From contig CACJWR010000006.1 in NCBI GenBank assembly GCA_902596985.1, positions 1-60,237 of the forward strand: a stretch of 60,237 nt of DNA. The letters are read 5' to 3'. This DNA is from an uncultured Alphaproteobacteria bacterium (GTDB taxonomy: Bacteria; Pseudomonadota; Alphaproteobacteria; Rhodobacterales; Rhodobacteraceae). Below are positions 16,405 to 25,799 of this stretch, piece by piece. Every line of letters starts with the position of its first letter. Position 1 is the stretch's first letter. The translations under genes were made by a program, and so were the position numbers. The notes below the pieces were generated by a model. That model saw only the letters and a list, made by a program, of their open reading frames with translations, did not search any database and was not told the DNA's origin.

Positions 16405-18237
16405 TTATTGACTTAGTTCTTCCAATTCAAGCCAACGCTCTTCGTACTCTTCCAATTGATCTTTCGCCAGTTTGAGTTCCTTGGTCATTTCGACAAAACC
16501 GTCAGGATCACTTTTATAAAAATCTCCATCGGATAACTTTTCTGTGAGTATTTTAATCTCGGCTTCTTTAACTTCAATTTGCTTAGGAAGATTTTTCAAT
16601 TCATATTCAAGCTTGTAGGTTAGTTTCTTGGTTCCAGTGTAATCTTTTTTCGTTTCTACTTCTTTTACCTGCTTGATATTTTCCTTCTTATTACCATTTT
16701 TTTTCGGCTGGGACCTCTTTTGATTAAGATAATCAGAATACCCTCCGATACACTCTTCAATTTTTCCATCTCCCTCAAATGCCAAAACTTTAGTTACCGT
16801 CTGATCTAAAAAGTCGCGGTCATGTGAAACCAATAATAAAGTACCCTCATAATTGATAAGAATCTCTTCAAGCATATCCAGCGTTTCCATATCGAGATCA
16901 TTTGTGGGTTCGTCAAGAATAAGACACGTTTTTGGATCAGCTAAAATTTTTGCAAGTTTTAAACGATTTTTTTGGCCGCCCGACAGTGTCACCACTTTAT
17001 CTAGCACGACGCTTGAATCAAACATAAAGTCTTTCAAATAACCATAGATATGCCGCGTCTTGCCTCTGACATCAACGTAGTCACCTCCATTGGGAGCCAT
17101 GACATCTTTCAATCGATCGTTTGGTCTCAAATCACTTCTATTTTGATCAAAGTATGAAAACTCAATTGTCTTTTGTACTTTCACGCTTCCACGATCAGCT
17201 TTTAATTCATTAAGAATAAGTTTTAAAAAGGTTGATTTCCCTGATCCATTTTTACCAATTATTCCAATGCGATCCCCTCTCTTAATACGGATATTAAAAC
17301 CATTGAGTATATTAATTGTTTCTTCATCATTCTGAAATGATTTATGTACATTATAAAACTCACAAATGACTTTCGTGTGATTATCAAGGTCTTTGATTGG
17401 TTCATAACTTATTTTTTTTGTTGCACGACGATAAGCTGACTCGTCGGCCTTTAACCTATCTCTCATTTCACGTACCTGACTTAGGCGTCGTACATTTCTT
17501 TTTACGCGCGCTTTAACACCGCGGGATGCCCACTCTACCTCCTGGGCTACGATTTGTTTTCTTTTTTGAAGTTCGCGTTCCTCTTGCTCTAAGAGCATAG
17601 TTGACCATTCATCAAAAACCTTAAACCCTTTTGGACTGACCTTGAGTTTTCCTCTATCCAACCAAAATACCTTGTTGGTTATATTTTCTAAGAAGCGTTT
17701 GTCATGGGAAATGCAGAGTATCGCACCTTGATAATTATTAAGATAACCCTCGAGCCAACTAATTGCTTCAAGGTCTAAATGGTTCGTTGGTTCATCAAGC
17801 AAAAGAATATCGGGCTCTTCCACAAAGGCTTTTGCCAATCCCGCTCTTCTAAGCTGGCCTCCAGATAGCATTGTCATGCGTTTTTTTACATCCAAGTCAA
17901 GTGCTTCGGCGGCAATATCCACTTTATATTGATAGAGTTCTCGATCCTCACCTTTAATATTATTAAAAATAAAATCAAATACTGTTTCTTTTTCATTGGG
18001 TTGAAAGTCTTGGACTAAATACCCTATTGTTGTTCCAGGATTTTCCCAGCGTTCTCCTTCATCCAGTGACTTAACACCCGTTATAATATTCATAATTGTT
18101 GATTTACCTGCACCATTTTTTCCTACCAAAGCGATACGGCTACCCTGATGTATATTCAACGTAAGGTCTTCAAATACGGGTATCTCTTTATATCGAACGA
18201 GCGCATCTTTTATGGAAAATATAAGTTGTGATGACAT
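16405..18237 (-). CDS. uup: ABC-F family ATPase (Uup-like)
   Basis: A soluble tandem ABC ATPase acting on ribosomes or nucleic acid; no membrane segments. First cassette: Walker A GKNGAGKST (about 39-47), signature LSGGQLRRAGLAKA, Walker B ILLLDEPTNHLD. Second cassette: GKNGSGKST, LSGGQKNRLKLAKI, CLILDEPTNDLD. The inter-cassette linker is arginine/lysine rich and the C-terminal 80 residues form a lysine/glutamate-rich coiled coil, the arrangement of Uup. The 610-residue length fits. It follows the nonulosonate operon by 26 bases on the same strand and may read through from it. Confidence 0.93.
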   Translation of the reverse strand: MSSQLIFSIKDALVRYKEIPVFEDLTLNIHQGSRIALVGKNGAGKSTIMNIITGVKSLDEGERWENPGTTIGYLVQDFQPNEKETVFDFIFNNIKGEDRELYQYKVDIAAEALDLDVKKRMTMLSGGQLRRAGLAKAFVEEPDILLLDEPTNHLDLEAISWLEGYLNNYQGAILCISHDKRFLENITNKVFWLDRGKLKVSPKGFKVFDEWSTMLLEQEERELQKRKQIVAQEVEWASRGVKARVKRNVRRLSQVREMRDRLKADESAYRRATKKISYEPIKDLDNHTKVICEFYNVHKSFQNDEETINILNGFNIRIKRGDRIGIIGKNGSGKSTFLKLILNELKADRGSVKVQKTIEFSYFDQNRSDLRPNDRLKDVMAPNGGDYVDVRGKTRHIYGYLKDFMFDSSVVLDKVVTLSGGQKNRLKLAKILADPKTCLILDEPTNDLDMETLDMLEEILINYEGTLLLVSHDRDFLDQTVTKVLAFEGDGKIEECIGGYSDYLNQKRSQPKKNGNKKENIKQVKEVETKKDYTGTKKLTYKLEYELKNLPKQIEVKEAEIKILTEKLSDGDFYKSDPDGFVEMTKELKLAKDQLEEYEERWLELEELSQ

Positions 18238-18263
18238 AAATTTTTAGAATAAATAGTGTTTTT

Positions 18264-19520
18264 TTATGGCTTACCGGGGAGGTAGTTTAAATCTTCTAGC
18301 AAATTAGGGCAATCAAACTTTGAGACAAGTATTTGTTCTTTTTCAATGTTTGATTTATACAAAAAATGACCTGCAGAATTTGAGAGAGAACGTTTAGGGT
18401 TACCCTGATTTTTTTCGAGAAAAAATTTATCAACGCATTGGAACTCGCATTCTCCTGATTTCATCAGATCATCAATTAATAGTTGGTCATTCAACGTAAA
18501 CGCCATTCTAGCGACACAAAATTCGGGAAGACAAATATTATTATTCTCATAAATAAAAATTGAGTCTAATTTCTCTCCTGGAATATGCGACTTTATAAAT
18601 GCATCAATATAGCCTTTGCCAAATGCACACTCAATCATAAGATCTCTCCATCCTCCCATTCGAGAAGCAAAATCAAGCGTATATATTTCATCTTCAACAA
18701 TTCTGACCTCGACGTGACAAGCTCCAGTTTGAATGTCAAATCCGTTGAGTAATGTAAGGACATATTCAGTTATTGACGAATTTAACTCTTGTGAAATTGG
18801 AGCAGGTAAAATATGTCCAGTTTCAACTTGCATTTCAGTTGGATCCATAGTTTGTGAAGCAATAGCTACGACTTTATGTTGGCCACTGTAACTGAGCGTT
18901 TCTATACTAAATTGTCTGCCCGCAAGCAAGCTCTCGATAATAACAAAACCTTGTGATGACTCATTTAACGCGTATTCAATAGAGTGGGGCAGATCAACGT
19001 TAGAGTTGCAAATAGATATTCCTCGTCCAGCGGAACTATCCACTGGCTTTACGATGCAAGGAAATAAAATCATAGATTCTTTTTTTTTAGAAAGAGAATC
19101 GTTCAATAAATGCTCAGAAGAAATAATAACGTAATTTGGGTTCTTTAACCCTATAGAAGCCATTCTTTTTCGCATCTCAGACTTATTGCGTGTCATTTCC
19201 ACAACTGAGGGACTATTATAGATATATCCTTGTTTAGCAGCTATCTTGCTAGCCGTTAAATTACCGATTTCAGAGGCAGGCGCCATTATTGCTATTACAT
19301 TGACTAACTTAGTTACACGAAGCGATACTTCATCAAAATCATCTATAGAAACGGCAAAAAAGTCATCAGCTACCCTTTTACCGATGCAGGCTTCCTCTTT
19401 ATCAAAGCAAACAACATAATAACCAAGTTTTTGGCACCTTTCAATACACCTCGCTTGTTGTATTCCACCGCCCAAAACTATAATTTTCTGTTTATCATAT
19501 GACCTTACTGGCTTTTTCAC
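18264..19520 (-). CDS. ATP-grasp domain carboxylate ligase
   Basis: A 418-residue ATP-grasp enzyme. The N-terminus is a pre-ATP-grasp Rossmann segment (KIIVLGGGIQQARCIERCQKLGY). The ATP-binding lid has IVKPVDSSAGRGI, and the metal-binding end reads YTLDFASRMGGWRD, with Asp where many relatives have Glu. It would join a carboxylate to an amine through an acylphosphate. It is not a known enzyme of sialic or pseudaminic acid synthesis. The start is GTG with AAGGAAC seven bases upstream and overlaps the preceding PLP-fold gene by 26 bases, so it is part of the nonulosonate operon. Confidence 0.85.
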   Translation of the reverse strand: MKKPVRSYDKQKIIVLGGGIQQARCIERCQKLGYYVVCFDKEEACIGKRVADDFFAVSIDDFDEVSLRVTKLVNVIAIMAPASEIGNLTASKIAAKQGYIYNSPSVVEMTRNKSEMRKRMASIGLKNPNYVIISSEHLLNDSLSKKKESMILFPCIVKPVDSSAGRGISICNSNVDLPHSIEYALNESSQGFVIIESLLAGRQFSIETLSYSGQHKVVAIASQTMDPTEMQVETGHILPAPISQELNSSITEYVLTLLNGFDIQTGACHVEVRIVEDEIYTLDFASRMGGWRDLMIECAFGKGYIDAFIKSHIPGEKLDSIFIYENNNICLPEFCVARMAFTLNDQLLIDDLMKSGECEFQCVDKFFLEKNQGNPKRSLSNSAGHFLYKSNIEKEQILVSKFDCPNLLEDLNYLPGKP

Positions 19521-20523
19521 CTTTTGTTCCTTTTAGAATTATGTCACAGCAGGCAAGACAAAACTCTTTGGTTTGGGTCATTCCATTAAAAAGATTTATA
19601 ACATTTTTTGATAAATCAGTACTAATTTGGCACGATCTATCATATGTTCTATAATGATCACTTGCAAATAACCCAGCGTTAAAAATTTTCTTTAATACCA
19701 GTGCGCTGTCATCGATCAAAATGTTAAAGCGCCAAAAATTAAATCGATCATCTAAAATATCGATTTCAGTTTCAGATCCCAATTGACCTCGGTATATGGT
19801 GTTAAGAATTATTTTTTTTTCTAAGGTTTGCTCTACTAAAATAGGAATAGTTTTTAAAATCCAGTCTACACTCAAGTTCAATTTTTCCTCCTCATTTGAA
19901 ACCCAAGAAAGGTTTCCAATGTTTTTACCAACCGTATAGGGATTATGATGTCTCCTTAGAGCCTGATCTACTACTTCATAAGATTTTTTGTTATACTTCC
20001 AAGAGAGGCGCTTGTAGGTTGAAGGCTTTTTTACGAAGGCGACAGCGCCGCTTTGATTTAATTGAATAAACTTTGAATATCCAAAACTGAATAATGTTAA
20101 ATCAGCCCAAAAGTTTTCGAACTTTGGAATACAAAGACATCGATCGTCGATTATATAGGTTAGCCCAGCTGTTCGAAGCCACCGGGTATTTGACTCATTA
20201 AAGTCGCTCAAGGCTCCATATGTATGTGCCAAAAGTAACGCGGTGACTTCATTTGAATTTTTTGCCAAGAAATTTTTTAAAGGTCTCATGTTTAAGTTTC
20301 GGAGGTTTGGAGTTAAATCTAATGTTTGTACTTTTATATCAAGTGAGCCTAATAAAGCATAAACTACTGGGCAACAGTTAGCTGGTAGAAAAACTTTTTG
20401 AATTCTATTACAAATTAAAAAGTTTCCTAAAATAGATAACGCTCTTGATCCCAAAACATACATGGAGGCAACTAAAGTTTCACATATCTCTTTAGCTCTG
20501 GAAGTGAGCAAGAGCGGACCCAT
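19495..20523 (-). CDS. DegT/DnrJ-type PLP-dependent aminotransferase-fold protein
   Basis: A divergent fold-type I PLP protein, 342 residues. Visible family points: V-L-G-S-R-A-L-S-I-L near the N-terminus, P-A-N-C-C-P-V-V, H-T-Y-G-A, the cofactor-ring Asp in I-I-D-D-R-C-L, and F-S-F-G-Y-S-K-F, whose Lys sits where DegT proteins form the Schiff base. The substrate is unknown; it is too divergent to call PseC. The ATG at 20523 overlaps the methyltransferase gene by 52 bases; an ATG at 20463 starts just after that stop and keeps the core, but has no Shine-Dalgarno. Confidence 0.75.
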   Translation of the reverse strand: MGPLLLTSRAKEICETLVASMYVLGSRALSILGNFLICNRIQKVFLPANCCPVVYALLGSLDIKVQTLDLTPNLRNLNMRPLKNFLAKNSNEVTALLLAHTYGALSDFNESNTRWLRTAGLTYIIDDRCLCIPKFENFWADLTLFSFGYSKFIQLNQSGAVAFVKKPSTYKRLSWKYNKKSYEVVDQALRRHHNPYTVGKNIGNLSWVSNEEEKLNLSVDWILKTIPILVEQTLEKKIILNTIYRGQLGSETEIDILDDRFNFWRFNILIDDSALVLKKIFNAGLFASDHYRTYDRSCQISTDLSKNVINLFNGMTQTKEFCLACCDIILKGTKGEKASKVI

Positions 20524-21149
20524 TCAGGCTTTAAAGCGTAAATTGAATACTCAAATAGTGCATAATCTGCTTTAAGTCCGATAAATCTAGTACATTCTTC
20601 ACTTAAAAAATTTAGCCATTCTGTTGGGCAGGAATAAAACATATCCCGATCAAAGTAATCAGCTGAGGTTGATAAGCCATTGAAACAAATTCCTATTTCA
20701 GCATGTTTAAACATTTTACGTATCATGGAGCGACAGTATTCACTCCATTCGTCTGTTTTCGTTCCGCCGTGAAAATTAAATACGCCCGATAGACAATAAA
20801 TATCGGCCTTAGGAAGTTGTGGATCACTTAGGAGGTCTTGACCCCGAATTTCACAATTGGGGTTTTTTTCTCGAGCTACATTTACCATTTCGGGCACGAT
20901 ATCATTTCCACAATAATTCAAATGCTCAACACGCAGCCGAAGCCAATCATTCAGTTCACCAATCCCACAGCCAACATCGAAAACAGACAATTTTTCAACA
21001 GGAAAATTTATCCAATGAAACAACTTAGAATAGCGCAAATCTTGATGTGATTTTGTTTGATTGAATGTTGCTGCTGGCCCTCGCGGGTTATCAATAAAAT
21101 TTTTACTATAGATTTCTCTTTGAGTACGAATTATGCCTTGTTCCTTCAT
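20472..21149 (-). CDS. class I SAM-dependent methyltransferase
   Basis: A 225-residue enzyme with motif I F-D-V-G-C-G-I-G-E-L-N, an acidic motif II (Y-C-G-N-D-I-V-P-E) and a post-II aspartate in P-K-A-D-I-Y-C-L-S-G, which together define a Rossmann SAM methyltransferase. The start at 21149 is chosen with GAGG upstream; an ATG six codons earlier is possible. It overlaps the PseG-like gene by 44 bases and the PLP-fold gene by 52, so co-expression is almost certain. O- or N-methylation of a surface sugar is the likely role, by context. Confidence 0.82.
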   Translation of the reverse strand: MKEQGIIRTQREIYSKNFIDNPRGPAATFNQTKSHQDLRYSKLFHWINFPVEKLSVFDVGCGIGELNDWLRLRVEHLNYCGNDIVPEMVNVAREKNPNCEIRGQDLLSDPQLPKADIYCLSGVFNFHGGTKTDEWSEYCRSMIRKMFKHAEIGICFNGLSTSADYFDRDMFYSCPTEWLNFLSEECTRFIGLKADYALFEYSIYALKPEWVRSCSLPELKRYVKL

Positions 21150-22122
21150 ATACAAAACGCCTCGCATTTACTAAGTTTGTTTCGTCAAAGGCCTTCTTTG
21201 AAGCTCGGAAGAATAACTGTATCCGACTTTCAAGAGACTCACTAGAAAGCTCATAAAGCTCCTTTTTATGATTAAAACATAAACCAAGTCCTAATGCACA
21301 AAAATTTTTGTTATCTTCATTTTGTAAAGGAGTTCCCCCTACACAGATCGGCAAACGGCCTGCGAGAGCAGCTTCATACTTTATTAGCCCCCCTGAATTC
21401 AACAATAAATCACTCTTTAAAAGAAGTTTGTAAACGTTCGATTCAAATACTTGCATATCATATTTTTCAATTACAGCCGGTTTAGAGTGTTTCAAAGACT
21501 TAAATTGGCATTCAGTTATATAAAAAAAACGCTTTTTTATAGTGGGTATTGTTGGAAAAACTTCGAGTGCACTGATCATCAGATCACTAAAACTAGTTAT
21601 ACCACCTCCAAAACAAACGGCTAAATTTAATCTATCATGCAACCAATTTTTTCGTTCGACCATTCTTCTCATTTGCCAAAGCTCTTTACTCCCCCAAAAA
21701 TTTTTCACACCCAAAAGTTTATTGGGACAGTCAAAATTATCGTAAATCTCAGCCTTTGCACGAACATTGATAATATAATCAATATCCAAACCCACGTTTG
21801 TATAAGGACTATTATAAAAACTATCATTTAATGCAAAAACATTTACATTCTTAGAGTAGCTACGAAACTTTTTAATAAAGCTCTCATCATAGCTATCGAT
21901 CAATAGGCTATGTTTATTAGTCGACTTCATTTTGAGAAAATCGAGAATGTGACTTATTTCTGATATTTTTTCCTGCACAAGCCTTTTGCGACAGAAGTTA
22001 TCGAAGTCTCCCAAAAAAAATATCGGTTGGTCAATTATATCAGAAAAAAATTTCACAAAACTTAAGCATCTAAAAAAGTGGCCATAACCAATTTTGTTAT
22101 TTCCGTTACAGGCGACTAACAT
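21106..22122 (-). CDS. PseG/SpsG-like nucleotide-sugar hydrolase or glycosyltransferase
   Basis: A GT-B-fold protein of 338 residues. The N-terminal N-N-K-I-G-Y-G-H-F-F-R-C-L corresponds to the G-x-G-H-x-x-R-C-L signature of PseG, the UDP-sugar hydrolase that releases the 6-deoxy-hexose for pseudaminic acid. The middle F-G-G-G-I-T-S-F-S and the later N-S-G-G-L-I-K-Y-E-A-A-L-A-G fit the UDP-binding half. Overall it is divergent, so a related glycosyltransferase is possible. It starts one base before the FAD oxidoreductase stop and lies with PseI- and PseF-like genes, which supports the call. Confidence 0.78.
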   Translation of the reverse strand: MLVACNGNNKIGYGHFFRCLSFVKFFSDIIDQPIFFLGDFDNFCRKRLVQEKISEISHILDFLKMKSTNKHSLLIDSYDESFIKKFRSYSKNVNVFALNDSFYNSPYTNVGLDIDYIINVRAKAEIYDNFDCPNKLLGVKNFWGSKELWQMRRMVERKNWLHDRLNLAVCFGGGITSFSDLMISALEVFPTIPTIKKRFFYITECQFKSLKHSKPAVIEKYDMQVFESNVYKLLLKSDLLLNSGGLIKYEAALAGRLPICVGGTPLQNEDNKNFCALGLGLCFNHKKELYELSSESLESRIQLFFRASKKAFDETNLVNARRFVYEGTRHNSYSKRNL

Positions 22123-23466
22123 TTAAAGACCCATTATATGCATTAGATCATTTACTTTTTTAAATGTTTCGTTAAGTACATCACGCATAAAAAAACCACC
22201 ACTAGCTTGTCGCCCCACAAAACTTAAGTTTGCAAATCTGTTTTCGAGAGCACGAGTATAGCTGTCCATATGTTTTACATTTTTGCGCCAGATTATTGGA
22301 AAACCATTGGGAATTCTTTGCAAATTATAGTCTTTTACACAAAAGGAACTTTCAACAATATTTAAATCTACAAGTTCCTTAGAAATAAGCCGTATTAAGG
22401 CTTTATCTGCAATTGCGTCTCTAAGTGAAGGACTGCTTACAATTTCTACTCCAATTAAGATCTCATCTGAAGGCAAATCAGTCCGGAAATTATTGTATAG
22501 AGTATACCGCCAACCAAAACCATCATGTTGATAAAAATAGCATAAATCAGATAAAATCCTTCCTTTCCCACGAATGTGTAAAAGACAAATTTCGTTGAAG
22601 CGCGGTTTAGTGTTCAGACCCTCACCGAGAATTTGACCGAAAATTTGTGCAGGGGCGCTCCATAGTGCAAGGTCTAAAGAGATATCTTTCTCACCATTTG
22701 AAGTAGAGAAACTTGATATCTTATTTCCGACAATTTTGAAATGTGTCGCTCTGCAACCAAGTTTAATTTCTACTTTCTCACTCTTTAAGAGTTTTTTTTC
22801 AATGTTTGAAATAAATGATCCCATGCCCCCAGTTTTTGGATAAAGTATCGTGCTGTCCTCAGACTCATCATGAGTAGCTAAAAGTGAGTCACAATAAAGA
22901 GAATTTTTCTTCAAATCCTCATTTAGTGCTTTTTGACTAAGACGAATTCGCTTAAGTCCAGCAGCTAAAAAAACTGAATCGTCTAAAAGAGAAACTTCTC
23001 TTTTGCTCACATTCGCGAAACGCGAAATGGCAGGGATAAATAATTTATTATTAAGCAGGTTGCCAAATTTTGTGCCATGAGAACAATCAGCAATATTAGG
23101 TTTCACAGAGTTATCTATCAGTTGGCGTGCAATTAACTTGTCTGCATCTGTAAAAATACTTTTGGTTTCTAAAAAATTTGTCTTGTAAACCGCTCCATTA
23201 AGTGCATGTCCAATAGAGGATTTAACTTCTTGCAATAATTTATTTGGGTATAAACCTAAGGTTTGATTTATTTCTTCACATTCATTTGAAGAAAGTAAAT
23301 GGGTTCCCATATCTACTTGTAAGTCACCAAAATTATTCGATGCCAGCAAACCGCCCAACTTTGGCCCATTTTCGATTAAAATTACTTCAGAAATCGAACG
23401 TCTATTTGATAATTGTAAAGTTGCCAGAAGACCAGCTATTCCTCCGCCAAATACTGCAGCTTTCAT
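22123..23466 (-). CDS. FAD/NAD(P)-dependent oxidoreductase (amine-oxidase/mutase fold)
   Basis: A 447-residue flavoprotein. The dinucleotide fold starts at residue 4 with V-F-G-G-G-I-A-G-L-L-A and ends in an acidic strand tip (V-I-L-I-E-N-G-P-K-L-G-G-L), the pattern of protoporphyrinogen oxidase and UDP-galactopyranose mutase relatives. Y-P-K-T-G-G-M-G-S-F marks the substrate lid and V-G-R-Q-A-S-G-G-F-F-M-R the C-terminal flavin site. It lies between the CMP-sugar synthetase and PseG-like genes. A role in oxidising or rearranging the nonulosonate or a precursor is inferred only from context. Confidence 0.82.
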   Translation of the reverse strand: MKAAVFGGGIAGLLATLQLSNRRSISEVILIENGPKLGGLLASNNFGDLQVDMGTHLLSSNECEEINQTLGLYPNKLLQEVKSSIGHALNGAVYKTNFLETKSIFTDADKLIARQLIDNSVKPNIADCSHGTKFGNLLNNKLFIPAISRFANVSKREVSLLDDSVFLAAGLKRIRLSQKALNEDLKKNSLYCDSLLATHDESEDSTILYPKTGGMGSFISNIEKKLLKSEKVEIKLGCRATHFKIVGNKISSFSTSNGEKDISLDLALWSAPAQIFGQILGEGLNTKPRFNEICLLHIRGKGRILSDLCYFYQHDGFGWRYTLYNNFRTDLPSDEILIGVEIVSSPSLRDAIADKALIRLISKELVDLNIVESSFCVKDYNLQRIPNGFPIIWRKNVKHMDSYTRALENRFANLSFVGRQASGGFFMRDVLNETFKKVNDLMHIMGL

Positions 23467-23472
23467 TATTGA

Positions 23473-24180
23473 CTACCTCCAAAGCCCGCACTCAAAAAGT
23501 TGTTCTGCCATGACCCAATCATTCGGTTCATCGATATCAAAAACAAATCTACTTGCAAGTTCGAAGCCAAGTGTATTGCCACTAAAAAAAGGTTTTCTAC
23601 TTTGCCATGCTGCAGCCTTACCCCAATAAAATTGGCCGACGTCATGGTAAAGTTTCTCACAGTCTTGTGATCTTTTGAAAAAATGTTTTGGGACTTTCAT
23701 TTTCAAGTCACCACTTTCTCTTTTGATAAGAGCCCTTTCAATATTAGATTCAAAAGTTTTAATACATGTTGTGTAATCTGCTTTCTTATTTACAGTAAAA
23801 TAGCTTAAGCTTTGAAAAATTTCATCTTTAGAAAAAGCAAAAGCAGTTGGTAAAGCGCACAACACATATTTATAGCTACCCATACTTGCTAATCTATTTG
23901 CTTCAAAGGCCATTACTTCAACTAAACTTGTTTGGTCATCACTTAAATTTCCTGCTCTTAAATGAAAATAGTCTTTGTATTTCTTGAGTGTATCTGGAAT
24001 TTTTTTCAAATCAGTGGAGACAATAATTTGGTCGAACAAGTTTGTAGAAACAAGCTTGTCTATTATTCTCGCTACAGCTGGTTGTCCATCAATGACACGA
24101 AAATTCTTATTTGGAATTCTTTTACTGCCTGCTCTAGCAGGAATCACTGCTGCTATACCATCATCCCTAAAGTTCTGCAT
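23473..24180 (-). CDS. CMP-nonulosonic acid cytidylyltransferase (NeuA/PseF-type)
   Basis: Activates a nine-carbon 2-keto sugar acid with CTP to give the CMP-sugar. The signature I-P-A-R-A-G-S-K-R-I-P-N-K-N occupies residues 13-26, the CTP-binding loop of NeuA, PseF and KdsB relatives. S-T-D at about 56 and L-P-T-A at about 109 follow, and the terminal F-D-I-D-E-P-N-D-W carries the metal-binding Asp pair of PseF-like enzymes. It overlaps the synthase gene by 14 bases. PseF and NeuA cannot be told apart safely by eye. Confidence 0.9.
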   Translation of the reverse strand: MQNFRDDGIAAVIPARAGSKRIPNKNFRVIDGQPAVARIIDKLVSTNLFDQIIVSTDLKKIPDTLKKYKDYFHLRAGNLSDDQTSLVEVMAFEANRLASMGSYKYVLCALPTAFAFSKDEIFQSLSYFTVNKKADYTTCIKTFESNIERALIKRESGDLKMKVPKHFFKRSQDCEKLYHDVGQFYWGKAAAWQSRKPFFSGNTLGFELASRFVFDIDEPNDWVMAEQLFECGLWR

Positions 24181-25207
24181 TTGCGAGCTCTAAAAAAGAC
24201 AACTTTATTGGTTCGTATGCTTGAACGTCCCGCAATACTTTCGCTCCTAATATAGCAAAATAAAGCTCCGCTCCCAAACCATGGCCTGGGCGACAAACTG
24301 CTAAATCGTTCTCTGAGATCAAACTGCCCTTCTTTATATTATTTTTTGCAAATATTGAGCGACGCGCTCGAAAACTCTCTCTTGCCGCATCAACAACCCT
24401 TAAATCTGCATTTTTTGAAGCAAAAGAACTCGCTCTTACCGCGGCCACATATTCCTTAAAAGCATTTCCAGTACTTGAAAAGCTTGCATCAACTACATGA
24501 GAGTTTTCTTCAATATTAAAATGTTTTTCGAAAACACGGTACCCCATAGATGCCGCTGCTACACCTAGATTAGAGCTTATTGTATGATCGGAGATACCGG
24601 GGATACACCCCAGTTCAAGTATATCTCCAATCAAGCCTAGCGGATACATTTCCAGGGACGCGGGATACGCCGATACACAATTCATGATACAAATTTCTTT
24701 AACACCTTTTTTTCTAAGTATTTTGACTGCTCTTAAAACATCCTCCCAATTCGCTATACCAGTGGAAAGAGCGACCGGTTTTCGCATTGCACCAATCGCA
24801 GAAATCAGACGGATATCAGTTATTTCAGGAGATGCAATTTTATATGCAGGACAGTTGGAATTCTCTAAGACATTCAAAGCATTAATTGAAAAAGGAGAAG
24901 CGAAAACGGTTAAATTTATTGATTTTCCGTAATCCAACAAAAGTGACAACCAATGAAGTGGTGTTGTAGCCTTGTCGTATAAATTATAATAAGTATCGAA
25001 TTGGGACCATTGGCTTTTATTATTTATGCGAAATTCCGGTGCATCTGATGGAAGGGTCAGACAATCAGCAGTATAAGCTTGTATTTTTGCAAATGTGGCA
25101 TCACATTGCAGCGCACCCATTAACAACCGCTTAGCCACGGTTAAGTTTCCCCCATGATTTCCAGAAATTTCAGCTATACATACTGGAGTAGGTTGATCAA
25201 AGAACAT
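24167..25207 (-). CDS. pseI: pseudaminic acid synthase-like (NeuB/PseI family)
   Basis: Condenses phosphoenolpyruvate with a six-carbon acetamido sugar to make a nonulosonic acid. The TIM barrel shows I-A-E-I-S-G-N-H-G-G-N, A-K-I-Q-A-Y-T-A-D, L-Y-D-K-A-T-T-P-L-H-W (the segment that favours PseI over NeuB), Y-K-I-A-S-P-E-I-T-D, I-S-D-H-T and F-E-K-H-F. The C-terminal 60 residues form the SAF antifreeze-like domain (R-R-S-I-F-A-K-N-N-I-K-K-G through C-R-P-G-H-G-L). It is the first gene of the operon; the upstream region is AT-rich with no clear consensus promoter. Confidence 0.9.
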   Translation of the reverse strand: MFFDQPTPVCIAEISGNHGGNLTVAKRLLMGALQCDATFAKIQAYTADCLTLPSDAPEFRINNKSQWSQFDTYYNLYDKATTPLHWLSLLLDYGKSINLTVFASPFSINALNVLENSNCPAYKIASPEITDIRLISAIGAMRKPVALSTGIANWEDVLRAVKILRKKGVKEICIMNCVSAYPASLEMYPLGLIGDILELGCIPGISDHTISSNLGVAAASMGYRVFEKHFNIEENSHVVDASFSSTGNAFKEYVAAVRASSFASKNADLRVVDAARESFRARRSIFAKNNIKKGSLISENDLAVCRPGHGLGAELYFAILGAKVLRDVQAYEPIKLSFLELANAEL

Positions 25208-25639
25208 CTCAAAAAACCCAGAAAGTCTATTTCTATTATGTTGTTATCAAAAGCAATTGTTAATTTAAGGATAAAATAAAAAAATCAAAATTTAAACATA
25301 TTTCTAAAACCAATGTTGATAAAATATAGAGATAAATTGAACTGAATACTTTTGATTAGACCTTTAGATTTTACTTTAATTCATCCATATAGCTTAGAGC
25401 ATTTTCTCTAGAATGCTCATCCAAACTCTCAGCCCCAAAAACATTATCCAGATATTACAAACCCTAAGGGCGGCGACTTCTAAGCGGATTGGCACACTAG
25501 CGCTCTTATTTCAGACATACGTTTCTAAGGTCTCGGGCAGTTTGGTCAGTAATTTGTTCAGCGTTCTCTCAAACCCATTACAAAGGGTATTTTTGAAAAT
25601 ATTTTCTGTCGATAGACTACGTATGTCCGATAGTAATAA
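25208..25639. other. 432-base gene-free region with inverted repeats
   Basis: No convincing reading frame on either strand. The half next to the synthase gene (about 25220-25390) is AT-rich and should hold its promoter. The part from about 25395 to 25639 is richer in G and C than the flanks and carries three symmetric elements: a 7-bp inverted repeat (GAGCATT, 25397-25403; AATGCTC, 25412-25418), a 9-bp inverted repeat 96 bases apart (GACATACGT, 25514-25522; ACGTATGTC, 25619-25627), and a 12-base palindrome GAAAATATTTTC at 25595-25606. It abuts the 3' end of tRNA-Arg. A structured RNA or an old integration scar are both possible. Confidence 0.4.
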
Positions 25640-25716
25640 TGGCGCACCGGGGAGGATTCGAACCCCCGACCCCCTGATTCGTAGTCAGGTACTCTATCCA
25701 GCTGAGCTACCGGTGC
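25640..25716 (-). tRNA. tRNA-Arg (anticodon ACG)
   Basis: Read on the minus strand, the 77-base molecule folds as a cloverleaf: acceptor GCACCGG/CCGGTGC, D arm with AGCTCAGCTGGATAGAG, anticodon stem CCTGA/TCAGG with loop CTACGAA (anticodon ACG), a short variable loop, T arm with GGTTCGAATCC, discriminator G and an encoded CCA at 25640-25642. The ACG anticodon is expected to be deaminated to ICG by TadA to read CGU, CGC and CGA. It lies divergent from rpmH. Confidence 0.97.
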
Positions 25717-25799
25717 TGTAATGCGAATTTACTGAGGTGTTATCGAATTGTAAATACAAATCCTGTTATATTAATGTATCGTTATTTAAAAATAGCCAA

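Follow-up and report, generated by a model that had tools for sequence, protein, structure and literature searches.

A seven-gene nonulosonate operon at a tRNA-Arg gene of an uncultured Rhodobacteraceae bacterium and its probable link to flagellin glycosylation

What is made by an operon that holds the late steps of pseudaminic acid synthesis together with four extra enzymes, and which part of the cell is it made for? The question is raised by seven genes at positions 18264-25207 of the window, by which we mean the whole analysed stretch of 60,237 nucleotides, contig C6 (CACJWR010000006.1) of the draft genome of an uncultured alphaproteobacterium (GCA_902596985.1; 1.83 Mb, 75% complete). Our answer, to which we give a probability of about 0.7, is that the operon is an accessory island at a tRNA gene that completes a pseudaminic-type pathway and serves flagellin in concert with a separate locus carrying pseB, pseC and a Maf-like gene. 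Gene content, the split over two loci, the insertion and the recurrence of the genes in other genomes are all read from the sequences. Codes beginning with G, C and L are our own for genomes, contigs and loci.

The operon and its insertion at tRNA-Arg

An earlier note, made from the window alone, had proposed seven genes on one strand with no gap above six bases, and this is borne out. All seven open reading frames (ORFs) lie on the minus strand. In the order of transcription they encode 346, 235, 447, 338, 231, 342 and 418 amino acids, and with the longest-ORF starts the junctions measure -14, +6, 0, -62, -52 and -26 bp, the sizes of the overlaps varying with the start codon chosen. The assignments made in that note were likewise confirmed by family and profile searches, that of the divergent PLP-fold protein indirectly, and its idea of late pseudaminic-type steps plus tailoring enzymes is supported; the amide on the sugar carboxylate or amine and the altered ring that it put forward are a suggestion. 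A search for a sigma-28-like promoter in the operon leader gave no match at up to three mismatches.

Three of the genes form the core. The first encodes a PseI-type nonulosonic acid synthase with NeuB and SAF domains (24167-25207), which matches pseudaminic acid synthase in the PDB (8h2c, E 1.6e-51) while other NeuB-type entries reach E 2.8e-29 at best. A PseF-type CMP-nonulosonate synthetase with a CTP_transf_3 domain follows (23473-24180). The fourth gene encodes a divergent PseG-like UDP-sugar hydrolase (21106-22122). A profile of four PseG-like sequences has a single PDB match at E <= 0.01, the UDP-sugar hydrolase 3hbm (E 8.9e-6), and the motifs GxGHxxRCL and GGLxKYE are invariant across the four sequences aligned.

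The other four genes would supply the tailoring. The third gene (22123-23466) encodes a flavin adenine dinucleotide (FAD) enzyme of the UDP-galactopyranose mutase / protoporphyrinogen oxidase superfamily, with Pfam matches to NAD_binding_8/Amino_oxidase. It scores 173.1 bits against a profile of seven relatives built without it; used alone, it finds no PDB match at 0.001. Of the 442 positions in the family profile, 3-399 can be aligned with UDP-galactopyranose mutase 4dsg (E 1.6e-16), D-x-G-x-H and R-x-T-x-x-x-N stretches included, but carotene desaturase 4rep scores best (E 1e-18), mainly over positions 1-260. Because the profile matches both, the enzyme may be mutase-like or may be a redox enzyme, acting on a nucleotide sugar.

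The sixth gene (19495-20523) encodes a very divergent DegT-family pyridoxal phosphate (PLP) enzyme. By itself the protein has no Pfam or NCBIfam match; when it is combined in a profile with its homologue from Thalassotalea loyana, aminotransferases of the DegT family are matched in the PDB (best E 2.2e-16), and that homologue alone scores 170.1 bits to DegT. Lys151 and Asp127 are invariant in three sequences. A near solved relative of the profile is 8-amino-3,8-dideoxy-octulosonate aminotransferase (5k8b), which would point to amination of an ulosonic acid; we treat it as a lead only, since many DegT enzymes score similarly.

Between these two genes, downstream of pseG, lies that of an S-adenosylmethionine (SAM)-dependent methyltransferase (20472-21167), with 32.8 bits to Methyltransf_25 and 96.7 bits to a profile of four relatives built without it. 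The last gene (18264-19520, GTG start) encodes an ATP-grasp_4 carboxylate-amine ligase, with 62.0 bits to PF13535 (gathering cut-off 27). Its nearest PDB entries are one named phosphoribosylglycinamide synthetase and L-amino acid ligases (3vot, E 3.8e-10). At one of the usual ATP-grasp motifs it reads D-F-A-S-R, where four other aligned ATP-grasp proteins have E first. We take this first position to have a role in metal binding, and because E is replaced there, activity of the ligase is not certain.

The operon lies between an intact tRNA-Arg gene with anticodon ACG (25640-25716, minus strand) and a gene for an ABC-F ATPase (16405-18237, minus strand), the latter a native neighbour at the left edge and outside the system. 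An ABC-F gene was found in 15 of the 22 genomes of the genus searched, the window's own included. It is 93-96% identical in 12 of the 14 relatives; in one relative its frame is broken (G015), and in one the gene is partial (G005). All 14 show an empty site, with tRNA-Arg(ACG) directly upstream of ABC-F and 27-31 bp away. In the window about 7.4 kb separate the two, with the operon in between, and this is the only insertion among the 15 genomes.

A 17-bp direct repeat marks the edges. The right copy (25639-25655) is the tRNA 3' end plus one base, and the left copy (18266-18282), a degenerate tRNA-Arg 3' end, adjoins native sequence upstream of ABC-F; the two are identical at 15 of 17 positions and lie 7373 bp apart. 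None of 20000 random 60-mers matched the tRNA-end repeat as well in either of two registers. In another run, on both strands and with the last 17 nucleotides of the tRNA, one of 20000 random sequences reached at least 15 matches, and the island edge has 14. A stronger argument than these statistics is position: the left copy stands exactly where the tRNA end stands in the empty sites, and the native spacer follows it. The last codons of the ATP-grasp gene lie inside this copy, its stop overlapping the edge of the repeat, and at the other end 25208-25638 is island sequence between the tRNA gene and pseI. Judged by these sequence features, the operon was acquired as an accessory island that went into the 3' end of tRNA-Arg(ACG). 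A plus-strand ORF of 102 amino acids that spans the tRNA-Arg gene (25413-25721) is probably no real gene.

The rest of the pathway elsewhere in the genome

None of the seven products is PseB, PseC or PseH. The first two are encoded on contig C10 of the same genome, where PseB scores 500.8 bits (NCBIfam cut-off 407.75) and PseC 441.1 bits (cut-off 423.5). They lie between FliS and a run consisting of a NanM-type sugar O-methyltransferase, FliD and a Maf/PseD-like protein of 695 amino acids; the last has 111.9 bits to PF01973 (cut-off 34.6) and 115.9 bits to the PseD model NF050051 (cut-off 670). No PseI, PseF or PseG is labelled in the 18 kb of C10 around these genes. Since PseB and PseC adjoin flagellar genes, flagellin is probably the target, and the simplest reading is that one flagellar pathway is probably split over two loci. 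Homologues of pseI from the same genus, 29-35% identical, share a stretch with FliD in L051, L052, L056 and the short contig L054, three of the four also with Maf.

A PF03102 scan of the genome finds two NeuB-type genes over the cut-off and one partial match of 20.6 bits. The second NeuB-type gene lies on contig C21 (L005:2908-8510) with genes for a LegC-like aminotransferase, a cytidylyltransferase, a GMC-type oxidoreductase and a NeuC over its cut-off. This set looks like a separate pathway; NeuB matches of its kind, 28-30% identical to the PseI of the window, occur in many genomes of the genus.

If the flagellar pathway is split in this way, the following scheme can be suggested, in which flagellin as the target, the ATP-grasp ligase in place of PseH, the order of steps and the product are what we infer. 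PseB and PseC would make UDP-4-amino-4,6-dideoxy-L-AltNAc. The ATP-grasp ligase would then, probably, acylate the free 4-amine where PseH would normally act, forming an amide with an amino or hydroxy acid and yielding ADP and phosphate. The PseG-like enzyme would strip off UDP, PseI would join the sugar to phosphoenolpyruvate and PseF would make the CMP-sugar, from which the Maf-like enzyme would transfer the sugar to flagellin. Together with the ligase, the FAD enzyme, the DegT enzyme and the methyltransferase are probably a sugar-decorating set, these three further changing the sugar or its acyl group by a chemistry that we can suggest only from their families.

Recurrence of the tailoring genes

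If the four extra genes belonged to a defined pathway, as the earlier note had it, they might be expected to recur as a block beside pseI. The expectation holds for three of them: the FAD, PLP and methyltransferase genes stand together beside pseI in three other genomes. It fails for the ATP-grasp gene, which occurs in none of these full blocks, GNAT and WbqC genes being carried instead. Elsewhere an ATP-grasp and methyltransferase pair stands beside pseI in one other locus (L151, of G935), which also has a GNAT gene. That locus (L151:1445-12554) combines pse genes with ATP-grasp, HMGL-like, methyltransferase, amidohydrolase and PIG-L-like genes, and is another unusual tailoring set in itself.

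Matches to pseI were found in 149 of 398 genomes of the phylum, the window's own included, and the best outside that genome is in T. loyana (G748). Among 20 pseI loci fetched from the high-scoring end of these matches, not strictly the top 20, G748 alone has relatives of the FAD, PseG, PLP and methyltransferase proteins together. The PLP protein has no match in 100 relatives. A pattern scan of a species-genome collection with a two-row PLP alignment, limited in sensitivity, gave 43 stretches with two true relatives, in T. loyana LMG 22536 (L154) and T. eurytherma JCM 18482 (L153). The locus of both strains has 13 genes in the order pseB, pseC, aldo/keto reductase, class III aminotransferase, cytidylyltransferase, pseI, FAD, pseG, a second methyltransferase, PLP, methyltransferase, WbqC and GNAT, and Maf, FliS, FliD and flagellin genes adjoin it on the opposite strand. 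PseB, PseC and PseI of T. loyana exceed their cut-offs; its PseG, with 96.7 bits, is below the cut-off of 153.55. The third genome with the full FAD, PseG, PLP and methyltransferase block beside pseI, again in a flagellin-glycosylation island, is another gammaproteobacterium (G1326). Compared with the window, the Thalassotalea loci keep PseI, FAD, PseG and PLP in the same relative order and also have a methyltransferase gene; they differ in that this gene follows PLP instead of preceding it, in lying beside flagellar genes and in having no ATP-grasp gene. The cytidylyltransferase is a different one, and PseB, PseC, the aldo/keto reductase, the class III aminotransferase, the second methyltransferase, WbqC and GNAT are additional.

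The window proteins were also used as queries against 1322 ORFs (1137 distinct) from 187 loci. These had been chosen for similarity to PseI, methyltransferase, FAD or PLP; for G748, PLP and PseG were not selection criteria. The best matches of PseI are the three PseI proteins of the full blocks. PseG finds, besides copies of itself, only PseG genes of the full blocks, and PLP has no match other than itself and its counterparts in T. eurytherma and G1326. For the methyltransferase the best match is in the G1326 block, just 0.8 bit above an unrelated locus, and for FAD the best are in G450 and G1178.

Within the window's own taxonomic order the FAD profile finds only the window's genome among 196; in the order of Thalassotalea it finds six copies in 5 of 257 genomes. 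The window FAD protein matched 9 of 384 other genomes of the class at 1e-3, eight of them over the N-terminal part only. Of the eight family copies found outside the window, seven have flagellin, FliD, FliS or Maf in the same stretch. Where the searches with FAD itself yielded family members, these were in flagellar stretches in six of six cases in one search and in none of one in the other. In G1178 and G1208 the FAD gene directly follows Maf. G450 has two FAD-family genes, 34% identical, in a single locus for flagellar glycosylation, with about 6 kb between them (L165:10554-11918 and 17685-19013). In two loci (L167:9758-12711 and L168:9939-12918) Maf is followed immediately by FAD, a methyltransferase-like gene and a protein of 305-313 amino acids with no Pfam match, a run that is possibly a shorter version of the tailoring set. 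The genes of 305-314 amino acids, which come after FAD and methyltransferase in L167 and L168 and after methyltransferase in L165, had seemed PLP-like by eye; profile comparison and Pfam gave this no support. A further candidate FAD locus from BLAST (L100, of G649) was rejected when a profile built without it gave 32 to 41 bits; its methyltransferase match stands. L100 remained a row of alignments A2 and A4, the latter used for FAD searches.

The methyltransferase family is broad: at 1e-8 it has matches in 27 of 369 genomes, G748 among them. Loci were fetched for 17 of the 26 others, and 14 have a clear methyltransferase ORF. In seven of these (L136, L138, L139, L141, L142, L143 and L147), as in the Thalassotalea block, a WbqC-like gene is at most two genes away. 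The ORF caller labelled no NeuB ORF in L095 and L099 and no clear methyltransferase ORF in L140, L148 and L152, and negatives are weak there.

Viral contigs gave no relative of the window FAD (exact peptide patterns, which find close relatives only), phages none of the window or T. loyana FAD, and plasmids none of the window FAD, PLP or PseG or of the T. loyana FAD. PseI reaches about 36% identity at best on plasmids, in pseI-type genes where these are annotated. ATP-grasp matched 252 plasmid records. Two of them were inspected, and neither stretch shows a nonulosonate gene: in Brachyspira hyodysenteriae the neighbours are rhamnan-synthesis, GDP-mannose and amidoligase genes, and in Vibrio coralliilyticus pantothenate-type genes.

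Weighing the explanations

How does the operon compare with known systems? With the flagellin pathway of Campylobacter and Helicobacter (PseB-PseC-PseH-PseG-PseI-PseF) it shares PseI, PseF and a PseG-like protein on the island and PseB and PseC near flagellar genes; it differs in being spread over two loci, in having no PseH above cut-off and in the extra FAD, DegT, methyltransferase and ATP-grasp enzymes. The published systems that follow are taken from parts of the cited papers, and what we say of them holds for those parts. The Shewanella oneidensis sfmABCDE operon encodes a NeuB, a thiamine pyrophosphate (TPP) enzyme, a short-chain dehydrogenase/reductase (SDR), a SAM methyltransferase and an ATP-grasp_4 protein, and it is needed for normal flagellin modification. 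Flagellin there carries a mono-acetylated Pse-type sugar (274 Da) together with a further moiety of 236 Da on which methyls can be present; losing the ATP-grasp gene shifted the flagellin mass slightly less than losing the others did, and reduced spreading (PMC3765264). Common to both are a NeuB-type synthase, a SAM methyltransferase and an ATP-grasp_4 protein in one operon and homologues of PseB and PseC elsewhere, whereas in Shewanella TPP and SDR enzymes take the place of FAD and PLP, and the paper gives it no clear orthologue of PseH, PseG, PseI or PseF; the comparison is one of gene content (PMC3765264).

In the group I flagellin islands of Aeromonas, pse genes stand among genes for reductases, class III aminotransferases and methyltransferases, much as in the Thalassotalea loci, but these islands adjoin flagellar genes, and the part used describes no FAD or ATP-grasp gene in them, the term ATP-grasp being absent from the text (PMC7874193). 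In Clostridioides difficile, loss of CDR20291_0245, an ATP-grasp protein of PF13535, removes the terminal peptidylamido-sugar of the type B flagellin glycan; the protein family is common to both, and that locus is not a nonulosonate pathway (PMC5207246). A gene for UDP-galactopyranose mutase (Glf) can be present in the islands of Geobacillus (PMC5109656). The window's FAD family resembles the mutase 4dsg over nearly its full length, as far as sequence profiles can tell, with 4rep scoring higher. The gene set as a whole is not described in the parts used of PMC3765264, PMC13317340, PMC5207246, PMC7874193 and PMC5109656, nor in PMC4875605 by the terms sought. Nor is it described in the literature searched on pseudaminic or nonulosonic flagellin with these enzymes, with Thalassotalea or with tRNA islands, a scope outside of which many subscription papers lie. 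A flagellin glycan with a hydroxylated acyl group is reported for Treponema denticola, though the literature searched gave no account of it.

A number of observations weigh against the flagellar reading or parts of it. Some concern the enzymes. The best NCBIfam model for the synthase is PseI, whose score of 297.3 bits is under the equivalog cut-off of 340.25 (NeuB 193.5 bits); PseF, with 183.9 bits, is below its equivalog cut-off of 205.7, and the PseG-like protein, with 31.6 bits, is far below 153.55 and has no Pfam match. The window PLP weakly matched the LegC-like aminotransferase of C21 (E 3.5e-4, BLAST on a small set), and phmmer with the window PLP as query did not report the T. loyana protein. 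Against a profile of the PLP proteins of the three blocks the window PLP scores 32.4 bits, and 46 distinct values among the scores of other proteins are higher. AlphaFold models were too poor for a fold search, with mean pLDDT of 34.0 for PLP and 43.7 for FAD. Members of the methyltransferase family also occur outside Pse loci, pseI-type genes being present at 2 of the 14 relatives' loci. As pseI, ATP-grasp and GNAT occur together in L151, a replacement of PseH by ATP-grasp would not be general.

Others concern the surroundings. The operon itself is not beside flagellar genes, which lie near PseB and PseC only, and no flagellin gene is labelled in the 18 kb of C10. No Maf_flag10_N domain was reported for the C10 Maf-like protein, unlike four Maf proteins of relatives tested, and because of this we give the flagellar reading slightly less weight and a surface-glycan role slightly more. 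There is no PseH above cut-off in the genome (the best is a GNAT protein with 27.7 bits against 93.1), but since the draft is 75% complete, a PseH or another PseG could be missed and absence of PseH is not proven. No integrase is among the seven products, and none was seen by eye in a six-frame translation of the 432 bp beside the tRNA, where no profile search was made. One FAD-family member (G193, L057:8998-10446, 187.4 bits) has a NUDIX gene on one side and an rRNA operon on the other, and the surrounding 19 kb show neither a flagellar nor a nonulosonate locus.

Could the nonulosonate of the operon be meant for capsule, O-antigen or some other glycan of the surface, the PseB and PseC of the flagellar locus being incidental or left from a decayed flagellin system? 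The seat of the operon at a tRNA, far from flagellar genes, would agree with this, as would PseI relatives of the genus with no flagellar label in L050, L053, L058 and the short contig L055. Yet neither Pfam nor NCBIfam finds a glycosyltransferase, Wzx/Wzy or export gene among the seven products, PseB and PseC are close to FliD and the Maf/PseD-like gene, and the FAD relatives are found with flagellar genes in all but one case outside the window; we regard this explanation as unlikely. We think it very improbable that the island is a decaying remnant with enzymes too diverged to work. The missing integrase, the degeneracy of the left repeat, the end of the ATP-grasp gene inside a tRNA-derived repeat, the lack of PseH, the low model scores of PseG and DegT and the D-F-A-S-R motif might all be signs of decay, but each of the seven frames is open, they are closely packed, and the DegT lysine and aspartate, both PseG motifs and the FAD motifs are kept.

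A variant of the flagellar reading, fully compatible with it, is that FAD, DegT and methyltransferase build or modify an unusual acyl group rather than the sugar ring, and that ATP-grasp (or GNAT and WbqC elsewhere) attaches this group to the amine. We hold this to be a real possibility, if on less than even odds. It would fit the methyl-bearing 236 Da moiety of Shewanella and the methyltransferase and ATP-grasp_4 genes of sfm (PMC3765264), the reductase and class III aminotransferase genes of the Aeromonas islands (PMC7874193) and the HMGL-like aldolase next to ATP-grasp and methyltransferase in L151; the FAD family's resemblance, along most of the protein, to a nucleotide-sugar mutase, and the sugar aminotransferases that largely make up the solved members listed for the family of the PLP enzyme, favour the ring instead. 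More specific, and rather doubtful, is the suggestion of a new class of flagellar nonulosonates. Here the mutase-like flavoenzyme and DegT would add an extra amine or a rearranged ring to a Pse-type sugar, methylation would follow, and ATP-grasp would join an amino acid to give a peptidyl-nonulosonate on flagellin. The tailoring modules would then be exchangeable, in this case on an island aimed at a tRNA gene, by which a flagellar pathway already present is reprogrammed.

To return to the flagellar reading, genomic context ties a flavoprotein, a divergent DegT enzyme and a methyltransferase to flagellin glycosylation, and the two Thalassotalea strains with a related block are held in culture collections. 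The gene content suggests that amide ligation by ATP-grasp can substitute for acetylation by PseH. If the flagellar reading is right, a flagellar sugar pathway would be divided between a flagellar locus and an island inserted at a tRNA, and the gain of one island could alter the flagellar surface at once.

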